This document shows positions 49,792 through 62,631 of a stretch of DNA of 64,000 nt, piece after piece; the stretch's first letter is position 1, and each line of letters opens with the position of its first letter. This DNA comes from Photobacterium sanguinicancri (GTDB lineage: Bacteria > Pseudomonadota > Gammaproteobacteria > Enterobacterales > Vibrionaceae). Where the stretch lies: positions 3,534,001 through 3,598,000 of the forward strand of contig NZ_AP024850.1 in the NCBI RefSeq assembly GCF_024346675.1, given 5' to 3'. The notes beneath the pieces are model-generated. The model did no database searches and had not been told where the DNA came from. It was given only the letters and a program-made list of their open reading frames with translations. The position numbers and the translations under genes were made by a program.

Positions 49792-51963
49792 TTACATCGG
49801 ATCAAGCTTGGCGTATTGGGTTACCAACCACTTAATCCCTTCACCGTTAAAGGCGACTTGCACGCGACTTTGCGCACCACTGCCTTCAAAGTTGATAATT
49901 GTCCCCTCACCAAATTTCGGATGCTGAACACGCTGGCCTAAGCTAAATCCGGTTTGGTTAAAGTTGTCGTTCACCGTAGTTTGGCTAAAGCGCCCACCAG
50001 TCGCTGGGCGCGACACTTGCGCCTTCATGCGGACTTCTTCGACATGCTGCTCGGGGATCTCCCGAATAAAACGTGACGGCTTGTGGTAATTATCTTTACC
50101 GTATAAGCGGCGCATTTCAGCATGGGTGATGTAGAGCTTTTTCATGGCGCGGGTCATGCCCACGTAACACAAACGACGCTCTTCTTCTAACCGACCCACT
50201 TCTTCGGTCGTGCGAGAACTCGGGAACATGCCCTCTTCAACGCCGACCATAAAGACCACTGGGAACTCCAAACCTTTGGCACTGTGCATTGTCATCAGCT
50301 GCACAGCATCATCAAACTCATCGGCTTGGCCTTCACCCGCTTCCAGTGCCGCATGCGACAAGAACGCCGATAACGGACTCATCTCTTCGGCTTCTTCTGG
50401 TACTTCAAACTGACGGGTTGCGGTCACCAGCTCTTCCAAGTTTTCGATCCGCGCTTGCGCTTTTTCGCCTTTCTCTTGCTCGTACATCGCACGTAAGCCA
50501 GAGTTTCGGATCACTTCATCGGTTTGCTGGTACATAGGTAACTCAGCAGTATCGTCTTCTAACGCGTTCACCAATTCGATGAAACGACGTAGCGCATTGG
50601 CCGCACGGCCTGCGAGCACTTGTTCTTCAAGCAAGGAAATACTCGCCTGCCACATCGTCATGCCACGATCACGCGCCGCTAAACGAATAGTTTCTAAAGT
50701 GCGATCACCAATGCCACGCGTTGGGGTATTCACCACCCGCTCAAACGACGCATCATCGTTACGATTGCTCATTAAGCGCAAGTAAGACAATGCATCTTTA
50801 ATTTCTTGGCGTTCGAAGAAACGCATCCCGCCGTAAATACGGTAAGGCATACCCGCTTGGATTAAGGCTTCTTCCAACACGCGCGATTGGGCATTACTAC
50901 GGTACAAGAATGCCGTGTCTTTCAACACCCCACCTTGTTCACGCCACTCTTTGATTTTACCGACCGCAAAGCGAGCTTCATCAAGCTCGTTAAACGCCGA
51001 GTAAATTGAGATCAAATCGCCTTCGGCACCGTCGGTCCACAAACTCTTGCCCATACGCTCATTGTTATTGGCAATCAGTTCATTGGCCGCTTTTAGAATA
51101 TTCCCTGTCGAACGGTAGTTTTGCTCGAGGAAAATAGATGACGCCCCTTGGAAATCATTCAAGAAACGTTGAATATTCTCAACTTTCGCCCCACGCCAAC
51201 CGTAGATAGATTGGTCATCATCACCGACGATCATCACATTACAATCTGGTCCCGCCATTAGGCGTAACCATGCAAATTGGATGTTGTTGGTATCTTGGAA
51301 TTCGTCGACCAAAATATGCTTAAAGCGCGCTTGGTAATGCTCACGAATATGTTTGTTATCGCGGATTAACTCAAAGGCACGCAGCAATAATTCAGCAAAA
51401 TCGACTAAACCAGCACGATCACAGGCTTCTTGATACGCGGTGTATAAACGCAGCCAGGTTTGTTCAACCGGGTCGTTGAAGGTATCGATATGTTTCGGGC
51501 GTAGCCCTTCGTCTTTTTTACCGTTGATGTACCATACCGCCTGACGGGCAGGCCATTGTTTTTCATCAAGGTTATGCAGCTTAATCAGACGGCGCATCAA
51601 ACGCATCTGATCATCAGAATCAAGGATATTGAAGTCTTCAGGCAAACGCGCTTCAAGATAATGCGCCCGTAGCATGCGGTGACATAGACCATGGAAAGTA
51701 CCATTCCACATGCCCGCCGATGAGCCATGCATTAGCTCGTTAATACGGCCTCGCATTTCTGCCGCCGCTTTATTGGTAAAGGTCACCGACATAATCGAAT
51801 ACGGTGACGCTTGCTCAATCGACATTAACCAAGCAATACGATGAACCAGCACCCGTGTTTTACCACTGCCCGCACCTGCCAGCACTAAGTGGTTACCTAA
51901 CGGTGCTGCCACCGCTTCGCGTTGTTTGTCATTAAGACCATCTAACAGGAGTGATACGTCCAT
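49792..51963 (-). CDS. uvrD: DNA helicase II (UvrD)
   Basis: UvrD is a 3'-5' helicase of nucleotide excision and mismatch repair. It has 723 residues. Walker A is GAGSGKT near 29-35, with FTNKAAAEM, Walker B DEFQDTN, GDDDQSIYGWRGA, LEQNYRS, TMHSAKGLEFP and VGMTRA. The C-terminal tail (FGEGTIINFEGSGAQSRVQVAF) is the Tudor-like domain. ATG 51963 begins MDVSLLLDGLND as in E. coli (MDVSYLL); another ATG two codons upstream is possible. A LexA box lies just upstream. Confidence 0.97.
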   Translation of the reverse strand: MDVSLLLDGLNDKQREAVAAPLGNHLVLAGAGSGKTRVLVHRIAWLMSIEQASPYSIMSVTFTNKAAAEMRGRINELMHGSSAGMWNGTFHGLCHRMLRAHYLEARLPEDFNILDSDDQMRLMRRLIKLHNLDEKQWPARQAVWYINGKKDEGLRPKHIDTFNDPVEQTWLRLYTAYQEACDRAGLVDFAELLLRAFELIRDNKHIREHYQARFKHILVDEFQDTNNIQFAWLRLMAGPDCNVMIVGDDDQSIYGWRGAKVENIQRFLNDFQGASSIFLEQNYRSTGNILKAANELIANNNERMGKSLWTDGAEGDLISIYSAFNELDEARFAVGKIKEWREQGGVLKDTAFLYRSNAQSRVLEEALIQAGMPYRIYGGMRFFERQEIKDALSYLRLMSNRNDDASFERVVNTPTRGIGDRTLETIRLAARDRGMTMWQASISLLEEQVLAGRAANALRRFIELVNALEDDTAELPMYQQTDEVIRNSGLRAMYEQEKGEKAQARIENLEELVTATRQFEVPEEAEEMSPLSAFLSHAALEAGEGQADEFDDAVQLMTMHSAKGLEFPVVFMVGVEEGMFPSSRTTEEVGRLEEERRLCYVGMTRAMKKLYITHAEMRRLYGKDNYHKPSRFIREIPEQHVEEVRMKAQVSRPATGGRFSQTTVNDNFNQTGFSLGQRVQHPKFGEGTIINFEGSGAQSRVQVAFNGEGIKWLVTQYAKLDPM

Positions 51964-51990
51964 CGCCATCTACTGGTTATTTATACAATG

Positions 51991-52006
51991 CTGTCGATTA
52001 TAACAG
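51991..52006. promoter_or_regulatory. LexA (SOS) box upstream of uvrD
   Basis: CTGT-CGATTATA-ACAG has perfect outer tetramers and an AT-rich centre, 28 bases before the uvrD start. SOS induction of uvrD is well known in E. coli. Confidence 0.9.
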
Positions 52007-52196
52007 CTCCATTTCAGAATACTCTGAGAAGTTATCAGTGATTCAACCTCTTGCTGACTATTTTTTGTTCTATGCTTGGAACTAGCGGAAAGTTACACCT
52101 AAGTAAATTAATTGTAAAAAAGGTGAAATTATTTTCTTGCTACCCCTTTCTTATGTTCCGAGAGCGCAAAAAGCGCCATTAAAAACCAAAAGGAAA

Positions 52197-52216
52197 TGTT
52201 GCTACATCAAGCAACA
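52197..52216 (+). other. Leader hairpin upstream of bufA
   Basis: TGTTGCT and AGCAACA form a perfect seven-base stem around ACATCA, 24 bases before the bufA ATG. It lies just upstream of the Shine-Dalgarno and could stabilise or control the mRNA. No known metal-responsive operator is evident in the 230-base spacer back to uvrD. Confidence 0.45.
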
Positions 52217-52240
52217 GTCAGCGTATAAAGAGGAATTACT

Positions 52241-52504
52241 ATGAAGAAGACAAATATCGCCCTAGCCACTGCTGTTACTGGTCTTATTGCACTTGCAGGT
52301 ACTATGGCTTCAACGTCAGCTGTTGCGGCTGATGGCGCAAAAGAGAAATGCTACGGCGTCGCTAAAGCAGGTAAAAATGATTGTGCGACTAAGACGAGTT
52401 CATGTGCTGGTACATCTAAAGTCGATGGTCAGAAAGATGCCTTCATCATGGTACCAAAAGGTTTATGTGACCGTCTGTCTGGTAGCGCTTCAGAGGCGAA
52501 ATAA
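52241..52504 (+). CDS. bufA: Bufferin-type metallophore precursor (DUF2282)
   Basis: This is the precursor of a ribosomally made, modified copper-binding peptide. It has 87 residues: a Sec signal peptide (1 to about 30, cleavage after AVAA) and a mature part with four cysteines, C37 (EKCYG), C48 (NDC), C55 (SSCAG) and C76 (GLC). This spacing is the DUF2282/bufferin signature. In the characterised Caulobacter system the two central cysteines are turned into thiooxazole rings by the BufB-BufC pair. AGAGGA lies about eight bases before the ATG. The bufB start follows the stop codon without a gap. Confidence 0.93.
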
Positions 52505-53365
52505 TTGAGCAGACTGACACAGCAACAGATGGTTGGGGTGGGCTTACGCTCCCCCCACATCTTACAAATCATCGAACAGCGCCCCAACATTGGCTGGCTT
52601 GAAATCCATAGTGAAAATTACTTCAATCCCCATTCCACTGCGCGTGAACAGCTTCGAGAAATAGTAAACCACTACCCCATCAGCTGCCACGGAATTGGGT
52701 TATCACTGGGGTCTACTGATCCGTTGGATAAACAACACCTCAAACAGCTCAAGCACTTAGTGGATGAAGTAAATCCAATTGCGGTATCGGATCATTTAAG
52801 TTGGAGTTCGGTCGACGGCCAGTATTTTAATGATTTACTGCCACTGCCCTACACCGAAGAGGCCTTAGCAAATTTTTGCCATAAGGTTGAGCAAGTTCAA
52901 GATTACTTAGGGCGAGAGTTTCTGGTTGAGAACCCCTCGAGCTATCTCAGCTTTCGCCATTCAGCGATCCCCGAGTGGGAGTTTCTGCACGAAGTACAAC
53001 AGCGCACTGGCTGCGGTTTATTGCTCGATTTCAATAATATTTACGTCAGTAGCTTTAACCATGGCTTTGATTGCCAGCAATATATCAGCGCGCTCAACCC
53101 AGCTGCCGTCAAAGAGATTCACCTCGCAGGCTTTACGGTAAAAGAGTTTGAACAAGGTGAGATTTGGATCGACACCCATAGCCGCCCAGTCAGTAAACCC
53201 GTCTGGTTACTCTATCAGCTGTGGATCCGCCAGCATGGCGCAGTTCCGACCCTGATTGAGTGGGATCTAGATATACCTGAATTAGATGTTTTGTTGGCAG
53301 AGGCCCATAAAGCAACCACCATTATTACGCAGGAGGCGCACTATGGAAAAATCACCCTCCCCTGA
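52505..53365 (+). CDS. bufB: DUF692 multinuclear iron enzyme (BufB/MbnB family)
   Basis: This is a TIM-barrel oxygenase of the MbnB/BufB family that modifies cysteines of the precursor peptide. It has 286 residues. Conserved metal-ligand segments are visible in order: WLEIHSENYF, SCHGIGLSLGS, VSDHLSW, FLVENPSSYLSF, LLLDFNNIYVSS, EIHLAG, WIDTHSRPV and TLIEWDLDIPE. The start is TTG at 52505, eight bases after AGAGG at the end of bufA. An internal ATG (52529) would remove eight residues. It overlaps bufC by 23 bases. Confidence 0.93.
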   Translation: MSRLTQQQMVGVGLRSPHILQIIEQRPNIGWLEIHSENYFNPHSTAREQLREIVNHYPISCHGIGLSLGSTDPLDKQHLKQLKHLVDEVNPIAVSDHLSWSSVDGQYFNDLLPLPYTEEALANFCHKVEQVQDYLGREFLVENPSSYLSFRHSAIPEWEFLHEVQQRTGCGLLLDFNNIYVSSFNHGFDCQQYISALNPAAVKEIHLAGFTVKEFEQGEIWIDTHSRPVSKPVWLLYQLWIRQHGAVPTLIEWDLDIPELDVLLAEAHKATTIITQEAHYGKITLP

Positions 53366-54131
53366 TTCAGCACCCGCTTTGCACCAATTACAGCAAGACT
53401 TTTCGACGGCCTTGCACTATCAACCCAGCGATGTGACCGAGCATATTCAGGTGGGCCGCTTTCCCGCCGACCAACTCATTCAGGTATATCGCAATAATTT
53501 CGTCGTAAGTCTATGCGAAGTACTTGAAGCAACCTACCCCTGTACCCAGGCGGTAATTGGTGAAGAGTGCTTTACCCAATTAGCCCGCCAGCATGTGCTC
53601 AATTACCCTCTCAAGCAAGGTGACGTAACACCATACGGTGCGTGTTTCGGTAATACAGTATGTACTCATCCCAGCTTATTAGAAGCGGTGCCTTATCTAG
53701 TCGAATTAATTCAACTGGAATGGCTGATCGACAGCGCGAATCAGCACCCTTGCCATGCCATCAACTTCCCCTTCGAGAAATTACAATATCTCACCGAAGA
53801 CAATATCGCCCACGCAACGCTAACGGTGCCTGAGCATACCTATTTACTGGATGCTAACTACCCAGTCGGCAGTATCTGGCATATGGTCCATCAAGATAAG
53901 GTCGAAGAGATCGATCTCACCCAAGCCGAGTCGGTCATTATTCAACATCACCCCGAGCAGCTATCAGTGCTTACCACCACCCCCGCCGCCACCGCGCTGG
54001 TGCAATTAAGCCAACAAGGTCGTTCACTAGGGGAAGCCACTGCGGCAATGATGGCAATACTCGGCGAATTGATCCAACAGCAGGTTTTTTCAGACATTCA
54101 AGGATTGCCACAGGGAGATAGCGCATGCTGA
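53343..54131 (+). CDS. bufC: DUF2063 partner protein (BufC)
   Basis: BufC is the partner that brings the precursor to the DUF692 enzyme. It has 262 residues. The N-terminal DUF2063 domain (about 10-105; QLIQVYRNNFVVSLCEVLEATYPCTQAVIGEECF) is the recognisable part and was earlier called a putative DNA-binding domain. The rest is a mixed alpha-beta region. GGAGG seven bases upstream selects the ATG at 53343; the open frame extends further but inside bufB. Its end overlaps the DoxX gene by seven bases. Confidence 0.9.
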   Translation: MEKSPSPDSAPALHQLQQDFSTALHYQPSDVTEHIQVGRFPADQLIQVYRNNFVVSLCEVLEATYPCTQAVIGEECFTQLARQHVLNYPLKQGDVTPYGACFGNTVCTHPSLLEAVPYLVELIQLEWLIDSANQHPCHAINFPFEKLQYLTEDNIAHATLTVPEHTYLLDANYPVGSIWHMVHQDKVEEIDLTQAESVIIQHHPEQLSVLTTTPAATALVQLSQQGRSLGEATAAMMAILGELIQQQVFSDIQGLPQGDSAC

Positions 54132-54583
54132 ATTTTATGAAACACATCGATGGGGTCGCTAAACGGATCACCGATCCCCTGATCCCTTTTCTATTGCTCT
54201 TTACTCGCCTGTGGGTCGCATGGGTCTTTTTTAAATCAGGAATGGTGAAATATTCCAGCTGGGACAGCACCCTGTATTTATTTGAATTTGAATACCAAGT
54301 TCCACTTATTCCGTGGCAATTAGCCGCCTACATGGGGACAGCGGCAGAATTAATTTTACCGGCTTTCTTAGTACTTGGGTTATTTACCCGTCCAATGGCG
54401 TTGGTGCTGTTTGTGTTTAACATTATCGCCGTAGTGTCCTATCCCTTACTGTGGGAGAAAGGTTTTTTCGACCACCAGCTATGGGGCATGATGATGCTAG
54501 TGAACGTCTTCTGGGGGGCTGGCTTATTCTCGGTAGACAAACTGATCAGCAGCGAACCGAAAAAACACAGCGCACTGCAATAA
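54125..54583 (+). CDS. DoxX-family membrane protein of the bufferin operon
   Basis: This is a 152-residue integral membrane protein with four helices (about 17-40, 60-82, 88-108, 118-136). It has DoxX-type motifs LLFTRLWVAWVFFKSGMVK and ELILPAFLVLGLFTRPMA. DoxX proteins are often the last gene of bufferin operons; their task there is not settled (redox or membrane support are suggestions). It overlaps bufC and is followed by a terminator. Confidence 0.9.
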   Translation: MLNFMKHIDGVAKRITDPLIPFLLLFTRLWVAWVFFKSGMVKYSSWDSTLYLFEFEYQVPLIPWQLAAYMGTAAELILPAFLVLGLFTRPMALVLFVFNIIAVVSYPLLWEKGFFDHQLWGMMMLVNVFWGAGLFSVDKLISSEPKKHSALQ

Positions 54584-54620
54584 AGCCTTTCCTGACGAGA
54601 CACAACAAAAAAAAGCTCAA

Positions 54621-54650
54621 TAAAAAAGGCGACGTGAATAACGTCGCCTT
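54621..54650. terminator. Bidirectional terminator between the bufferin operon and yigB
   Basis: A perfect ten-base stem AAGGCGACGT / ACGTCGCCTT with loop GAATA has a strong T run on minus and a weaker T-rich tail on plus. It lies 38 bases after the DoxX stop and 27 bases after the yigB stop. Confidence 0.88.
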
Positions 54651-54676
54651 GTTGTTTCTGTTCACTTGCTTATTCG

Positions 54677-55399
54677 CTATTCAGCGACCACATCCAATAA
54701 TGCCGCCAACGATGATATCTCAATATCGGGTAACCGACGGGCGCGCGGCTCACGATGCAAACAACGGTTAAGATCGTTAAACCAGCAGGCTTGATAGCCA
54801 TTCAATAAGGCACCACTAACATCGGTATGTAAGTGATCGCCGACATGGAGAATATTTTCACAAGGTACACCAATGAGCTGAGCAGCCCGAACAAACATAT
54901 CAGGCGCGGGTTTAGCCGCCCCATCACGACCTGCCTGTAATAGGTGGCTAAAATAGCCACTCAAGCCAATCTTATCAGCATCCACGTTACCATTGGTGAT
55001 GGCCACTAACGGCACGCGTTGGGCTAACAATGCCAGCACACGGTGGGTCTCTGGCGGGACATCAACCTGATTACGGACTGCCAACACTGTCGCGACACCG
55101 TCGTTTGCGGCTTGAGTCGCTTGATTGAGCGAATAACCTAACTGCATTAAGCCTATTTTCAATAACTCAAAACGCCAAAGGGTCACATCATGGCGCAACC
55201 AAGGGTCGATGTTCGCCAACCGCAACTTTAACGCCATCCAATCGGCAACGGTCAGCATGCGTGACACTGGGTGCTTCGAATGCAACCAGTCATACATCGC
55301 CTGCTCGGCACGACGGATAACAGGGCGGTTATCGTAAAGTGTATCGTCTAAATCAAAGGTTAAGGCTTTGATTGGCTTTAAAGGTCGGTAAAACTGCAT
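54677..55399 (-). CDS. yigB: HAD phosphatase YigB
   Basis: YigB is a haloacid-dehalogenase phosphatase that can act on the riboflavin intermediate 5-amino-6-(5-phosphoribitylamino)uracil. It has 240 residues. HAD motif I is DLDDTL (near 16), motif II is AITNGN, the lysine region is AGRDGAAKPAPDMF and motif IV is HVGDHLHTDVSGA. It starts 15 bases after xerC and is the last gene of the lptM-lysA-dapF-DUF484-xerC-yigB run. Confidence 0.93.
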   Translation of the reverse strand: MQFYRPLKPIKALTFDLDDTLYDNRPVIRRAEQAMYDWLHSKHPVSRMLTVADWMALKLRLANIDPWLRHDVTLWRFELLKIGLMQLGYSLNQATQAANDGVATVLAVRNQVDVPPETHRVLALLAQRVPLVAITNGNVDADKIGLSGYFSHLLQAGRDGAAKPAPDMFVRAAQLIGVPCENILHVGDHLHTDVSGALLNGYQACWFNDLNRCLHREPRARRLPDIEISSLAALLDVVAE

Positions 55400-62491: not shown

Positions 62492-62631
62492 GTTAGTGAC
62501 GATTTATGACAACTTATGAATAGCAGATGCGGTGATGGCCGGCGTTATCCTTTTGCCTCATCCCTCAAGCTAGTATATTCCGGCAATTTCGCCAGCGCAC
62601 CAACGGGGTTACCGTGGCATCTTGAGGGTTA

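Follow-up and report, generated by a model that had tools for sequence, protein, structure and literature searches.

What product is made by the four closely packed genes that lie between uvrD and a yigB-type phosphatase gene in Photobacterium sanguinicancri, and how might these genes be switched on? We analyzed a 64,000-nucleotide stretch of the genome (contig NZ_AP024850.1, positions 3,534,001 to 3,598,000), referred to here as the window, and coordinates are counted from its first letter unless otherwise indicated. The four genes very probably constitute a Buf1-type bufferin operon, which would give rise to a periplasmic copper-holding peptide with modified cysteines. Both the kind of system and its mechanism are already known; what is less expected is its regulation without a linked sigma factor or NrsF gene.

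Layout and family membership of the four genes

The initial annotation had assigned the genes, in order, to the DUF2282, DUF692, DUF2063, and DoxX families. A Pfam HMM search bore out the order bufA-bufB-bufC-doxX as well as all four families, with DUF692 now being referred to as MNIO. The scores were 83.3 bits for BufA with PF10048 (DUF2282; cut-off, 22.4), 360.7 bits for BufB with PF05114 (MbnB_TglH_ChrH, or MNIO; cut-off, 25), 64.8 bits for BufC, scanned from the longer open reading frame start at 53286, with PF09836 (DUF2063; cut-off, 27.2), and 61.6 bits for DoxX with PF07681 (cut-off, 23.6). Given these scores relative to the cut-offs, the four assignments are not due to chance.

Table 1 Features of the buf locus and its flanks in the window
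Feature	Position	Strand	Description
uvrD	49792..51969	-	flanking gene
promoter-like element TGAAA-N17-CTTTC	52124..52150	+	90 nt before bufA
short hairpin, bufA leader	52164..52176	+	one base pair is G-C in half (7) of the 14 Photobacterium leaders and A-U in the other 7
short hairpin GTTGC..GCAAC, bufA leader	52198..52215	+	14 Photobacterium leaders
bufA	52241..52504	+	Buf1/DUF2282 bufferin precursor, 87 aa, Cys 37/48/55/76; PF10048
bufB	52505..53365	+	MNIO bufferin maturase, 286 aa, TTG start; PF05114, NCBIfam MNIO_BufB
bufC	53343..54131	+	DUF2063 MNIO partner (PME type 1, predicted), 262 aa; PF09836
doxX	54125..54583	+	DoxX membrane protein, 152 aa; PF07681
terminator-like hairpin	54626..54650	+	between doxX (+) and yigB (-); 10-bp stem
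yigB-type phosphatase gene	54677..55399	-	flanking gene

The gene coordinates and couplings described previously proved exact on rereading. The TAA stop codon of bufA is followed at the next base by the TTG start codon of bufB, the end of bufB overlaps bufC by 23 nt, and that of bufC overlaps doxX by 7 nt, with both bufC and doxX starting at ATG. In many relatives, a TTG, GTG, or ATG codon occupies the position of the bufB start, lending support to TTG as the initiation codon. The mechanical list of open reading frames places the start of bufC at 53286, upstream of the ATG at 53343. Ribosome-binding-like stretches are located 5' of the starts of bufA (AGAGGAA), bufB (AGAGG), bufC (AGGAGG), and doxX (AGGGAG). 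The terminator-like hairpin is a consensus match only, with four such sites having been detected in the scan compared with a shuffle mean of 3.0. The distance from the bufA stop codon to the conserved VGVGLR-type codons of bufB was 26 to 42 bases in 32 Photobacterium sequences and 54 to 172 bases at 34 Vibrio loci. Given the longer spacing in Vibrio, the tight coupling of bufA and bufB is, among the sequences sampled, characteristic of Photobacterium.

The precursor peptide, its maturation, and its role

Buf1 precursors are described as DUF2282 proteins with four cysteines, the central two of which are modified and the outer two linked by a disulfide; the resulting thiooxazoles chelate copper, and the core genes encode the precursor, the MNIO, a DUF2063 protein, and DoxX (PMC12452194). 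The positions previously given for the four cysteines of BufA were confirmed, and their spacing (C-x10-C-x6-C-x18..22-C) was retained in 89 of 90 bufA copies from the 80 related loci. All 89 spacing-conserving copies contain NDCA at the equivalent of C48 (89/89), and the equivalent of C55 is present within SSCA in 72 copies, GSCA in 12, and TSCA in 5. The odd copy (L100), from a draft genome of Vibrio aestivus, looks frame-broken after the first cysteine. As read by eye, the NH2-terminus of BufA comprises MKK, a hydrophobic stretch, and AVA-A, with a similar arrangement in relatives. Given that this putative Sec signal was identified by eye, the mature length of 57 residues is an assumption, and cleavage after residue 29 would yield 58 residues. 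Comparison of the BufA sequence with the PDB gave no match at E ≤ 1.

BufB reached 387 bits with the NCBIfam model MNIO_BufB ("MNIO family bufferin maturase"; cut-off, 310), and it remained below the NCBIfam cut-offs for HvfB (239.6 versus 360 bits), MbnB (70 versus 325), ApyH, and ChrH. It also matched solved MNIO structures in the PDB, the best of which was 3BWW (7.4e-41) and which included MbnB. Across 77 BufB sequences (the window and 76 of the 80 loci, with 4 loci having been missed by the script), 87 positions were invariant, including H62, D96, H97, E142, D175, N178, H206, D223, H225, and E252. These ten residues fall in stretches that align with 3BWW, with D223, H225, and E252 being situated in a weak second segment, and residues of this kind are putative metal ligands.

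The distant relationship of BufB to MbnB, apparent from both the model score and the PDB match, raises the question of whether the peptide acquires copper, in the manner of a chalkophore such as methanobactin, rather than buffers it. We consider this highly improbable, given that the score of BufB is far below the MbnB cut-off, that the four-gene operon contains no transporter or receptor gene, and that the precursor is a DUF2282 protein with four cysteines. It is similarly very unlikely that the genes form an oxazolin (HvfA-type) or Buf2-type cluster instead of a Buf1 cluster. The match of BufB to the HvfB model and a weak match of BufA to BufA2 (29.2 bits) would favor such an assignment, but both scores are below the corresponding cut-offs (360 and 60), no EGKCG repeat was found in the BufA sequence, the number of cysteines is four rather than six, and the DUF2282 score exceeds its cut-off. 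In the NCBIfam search with BufA, no model exceeded its cut-off, and BufA2 was the sole model listed, with no BufA1 model among the results; the BufA2 model probably describes the other, Cys-Lys group. The captophorins fontiphorin, oxazolin, and gonophorin resemble the buf system in that an MNIO and a DUF2063 partner generate 5-thiooxazoles on cysteines, whereas their precursors contain EGKCG repeats, unlike the DUF2282 protein BufA (PMC12668002). DUF2282 precursors are described in the same source as one captophorin group, and a 5-thiooxazole corresponds to a change of -4 Da per cysteine in related products (PMC12668002).

Given that a sequence search of the PDB with BufC yielded no match at E ≤ 0.001, its fold was predicted with AlphaFold2 from a 21-sequence alignment (mean pLDDT, 83.2; pTM, 0.77). 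The model matched three PDB entries at E ≤ 0.001, two for TglI (8hi7, 8hci) and one for NGO1945 (3dee), all of which are MNIO partner proteins. With TM-scores of 0.49 to 0.64 and rmsd values of 5.6 to 10.3, these matches are loose. On the basis of its DUF2063 score and this loose match over the whole protein, BufC is predicted to be a partner of PME type 1, consisting of DUF2063 and an RRE-type domain. Neither BufC nor DoxX reached an NCBIfam cut-off (HvfC, 27.5 versus 142; HvfX, 48.7 versus 80).

The Buf1 operon of Caulobacter vibrioides/crescentus matches the present operon in its four gene families, in their order, and in its four-cysteine DUF2282 precursor (PMC3511200, PMC12452194). Its genes, CC3254 (DUF2282), CC3255 (DUF692), CC3256 (DUF2063), and CC3257 (DoxX), are under the control of sigma-F (PMC3511200), and Caulobacter Buf1 is reported to result in better growth under copper excess (PMC12452194). 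If the Photobacterium operon operates in the manner of the characterized family, BufA would be synthesized with a Sec signal sequence, and a BufB-BufC complex, consisting of an iron oxygenase and a substrate-presenting partner, would oxidize C48 and C55 to 5-thiooxazoles before export. The signal would be removed in the periplasm, a disulfide would form between C37 and C76, and the mature peptide would hold excess Cu(I)/Cu(II), with DoxX serving as a putative membrane accessory. Modification, export, disulfide formation, and copper binding are all modeled here on that family, and homology suggests that thiooxazoles on C48 and C55 as well as copper buffering are also features of P. sanguinicancri.

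The same biosynthetic pathway might instead serve a response to another metal or to general stress (gold, mercury, chromium). Bufferin operons have also been named gold-induced, or gig, operons, the gig operons of Cupriavidus and Legionella are described as bufferin clusters, and fusions of MerC with bufferins are known (PMC12452194). The gig operon of Legionella, which contains DUF2282 and DUF692 genes, as does the operon described here, responds to gold and copper and may be regulated by RpoS (PMC5413113), and the Caulobacter operon was studied as a sigma-F-dependent operon under chromium (PMC3511200). The direct work on Caulobacter Buf1 concerns copper, however (PMC12452194), and the immediate neighbors of the present operon, uvrD and yigB, are not metal genes. 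We therefore regard a role other than one in copper handling as unlikely. The bufferin-type reading put forward in the initial annotation was supported by family membership, gene order, the partner protein, and the cysteine pattern, all of which were positive.

Distribution of the operon in Vibrionaceae

The initial annotation was silent on how common the operon is in Vibrionaceae. DUF2282 was present in 158 of the 197 Vibrionaceae genomes searched, and Vibrionales are reported to be enriched for MNIO-partner clusters (PMC12668002). The order uvrD-bufA-bufB-bufC-doxX was found at 81 of 81 loci, consisting of the window and the 80 best related loci; these 80 were the best of 145 confirmed relatives obtained from a pattern scan, are biased to close kin, and include L100 with its broken bufA. 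The yigB gene was found by similarity in the fetched stretch at 34 of the 81 loci (the window, 31 Photobacterium loci, L063, and L065). Among the best 80 of the 145 relatives, the closest named BufB was that of a P. sanguinicancri locus (L061), with 98% identity. Linkage to uvrD, checked in 30 of the 158 DUF2282 genomes, was apparent in 25 and not in 5, with these 30 genomes overlapping in species with the 80 loci. The uvrD-linked buf operon appears to be a vertically kept locus. BufB relatives were found in 355 plasmid records, all with <60% identity, and no recent plasmid origin is therefore indicated.

Some of the orthologs in Photobacterium and Vibrio are named "BufA1 family periplasmic bufferin-type metallophore" by NCBI, and others "DUF2282 domain-containing." Among the matches listed (120 of 2019), the 119 other than the cluster of the query itself show 66 to 87% identity over 92 to 100% of BufA. 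The BufA1-named orthologs show nothing of substance that differs from the present system, other than the tandem arrangement of bufA at ten loci. Given that the bufferin system has already been described, is common in Vibrionaceae, and has orthologs named by automatic annotation, the finding, although well supported, is unexceptional. It lends support to the notion that modified peptides for copper buffering are part of the standard gene complement of a large marine family; if this is true, little else would change.

At the ten loci with tandem genes, all from Photobacterium (L033-L035, L037-L043), two bufA copies lie upstream of a single bufB-bufC pair. The window genome contains one bufA copy, and a genome search yielded one MNIO match and one DUF2282 match. 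Such an operon with one precursor gene in Photobacterium would serve reasonably well as a test case.

A distant buf operon, located away from uvrD and encoding a BufB with 44 to 47% identity, was observed in five genomes (G153, G167, G173, G151, and G180; L002-L006), all with the genus label g12. An ECF sigma factor gene precedes this operon at the four loci whose reading frames were inspected (L002, L004, L005, L006), and a gene for a zf-HC2 zinc-finger protein was confirmed after it at two loci, L005 and L006.

The upstream element and candidate regulators

Sigma factor and NrsF genes occur in Buf1 clusters (PMC12452194) as a frequent but not a defining trait, and the Caulobacter operon is described as being controlled by sigma-F, together with DUF1109/NrsF, from a GTAACC-N16-CGAA promoter (PMC3511200). 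No sigma factor or NrsF gene is present next to the Photobacterium operon, and a search for NrsF (PF06532) was negative in all of 20 genomes (12 of the genus and 8 of the order), with the Caulobacter control being positive. No sigma-F-type GTAACC-N16-CGAA sequence was found before bufA, the best candidate having 3 mismatches versus a mean of 2.99 for 200 shuffles. One match to this pattern was present in the window, at 62588-62612 (-), and 24 of 100 shuffles also contain one. A consensus scan of the + strand from 51950 to 54750 detected no sigma-70-like site.

A strict TGAAA-N17-CTWTC element (N15-18 allowed) was identified upstream of bufA at 58 of 78 Photobacterium and Vibrio loci, compared with 0.6% of 1560 shuffled regions; this count left out L081, L087, and L095, for which the script did not find the bufA start, and, given that the loci are related by descent, part of the sharing is plain conservation. 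This element is unlike the sigma-F site of Caulobacter. The spacing was N17 at 57 of the 58 element-bearing loci and N18 at one. The end of the element nevertheless varied, being CTTTC at 22 loci and CTATC at 36, with core and spacing being constant. The strict element was absent from the remaining 20 loci (L046-L058, L063, L065, L088, L094, L099, L102, and L104). In the linkage-checked genomes, it was present in 18 of the 25 uvrD-linked operons, absent from 7, and found in 0 of 5 unlinked operons. The element gives rise to a simple prediction of how these bacteria switch on buf. A scan of the own genome with a pattern that includes the buf site gave 7 matches versus 2 for the reversed control, and an earlier pattern that misses the buf site gave 5 versus 1; no coherent regulon was seen among these copies. 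One copy (N16; C1 2599943-2599968, L125:1501-1526) lies 34 nt upstream of the gene for a PrkA-type kinase, and another (L126) about 137 nt upstream of a different open reading frame.

An unlinked gene for an ECF sigma factor, PRK12517, followed by that for a DUF3379 protein (L113:732-2016), was present in 151 of 153 bufA genomes versus 14 of 44 others (p = 1.9e-22), and, after removal of 14 listed g10 genomes, in 151 of 153 versus 14 of 30 (p = 4.9e-13); shared ancestry inflates these p values, phylogeny confounds the count, and the comparison was compiled by hand. Of the 153 bufA genomes, 25 were checked for uvrD linkage, and the five genomes with the distant buf operon were counted among the others. 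The two bufA genomes without PRK12517 are G150, which is 74% complete, and G004, in which the element is also missing from the uvrD-linked operon (L009). In the case of six further uvrD-linked operons (L012, L016, L025, L026, L027, and L030), the sigma factor is present but the element is not. The 450 nt preceding the PRK12517 sigma gene did not contain the strict element at any of the 30 loci (0 of 30), with L165 showing a looser match 413 nt away. No paper mentioning DUF3379 or PRK12517 was found in the literature collection searched. A link between PRK12517/DUF3379 and the buf operon is a tentative proposal, which we consider rather unlikely. With similar reserve, we suggest that the uvrD-linked buf operon of Vibrionaceae may have moved from control by a linked SigF/NrsF pair to that by the unlinked PRK12517/DUF3379 pair via TGAAA-N17-CTWTC, and that buf operons acquired separately by a few Vibrio may instead come with linked genes of their own for an ECF sigma factor and a zinc-finger protein.

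Two other sigma factors were considered. A SigZ-like ECF sigma factor of the own genome (L114) has a similar element upstream and close orthologs in ~24 of 197 genomes, and it was rejected because these orthologs show no association with bufA (17 of 153 versus 7 of 44). A ChrR-type ECF sigma factor (L115), which is present in genera without bufA and missing from many Photobacterium genomes that have it, was set aside; its association with bufA (126 of 153 versus 26 of 44; Fisher p = 0.002) was weak and far below that of PRK12517/DUF3379.

The 22 Vibrio bufA leaders share one weak hairpin (-1.3 kcal/mol). The 14 Photobacterium leaders contain two short hairpins with a few compensated pairs, the covariation term being only -0.15; the innermost pair of GTTGC..GCAAC is unchanged in 5 of these leaders, changed on both sides in 5, and broken in 4. 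These hairpins might conceivably stabilize the precursor message.
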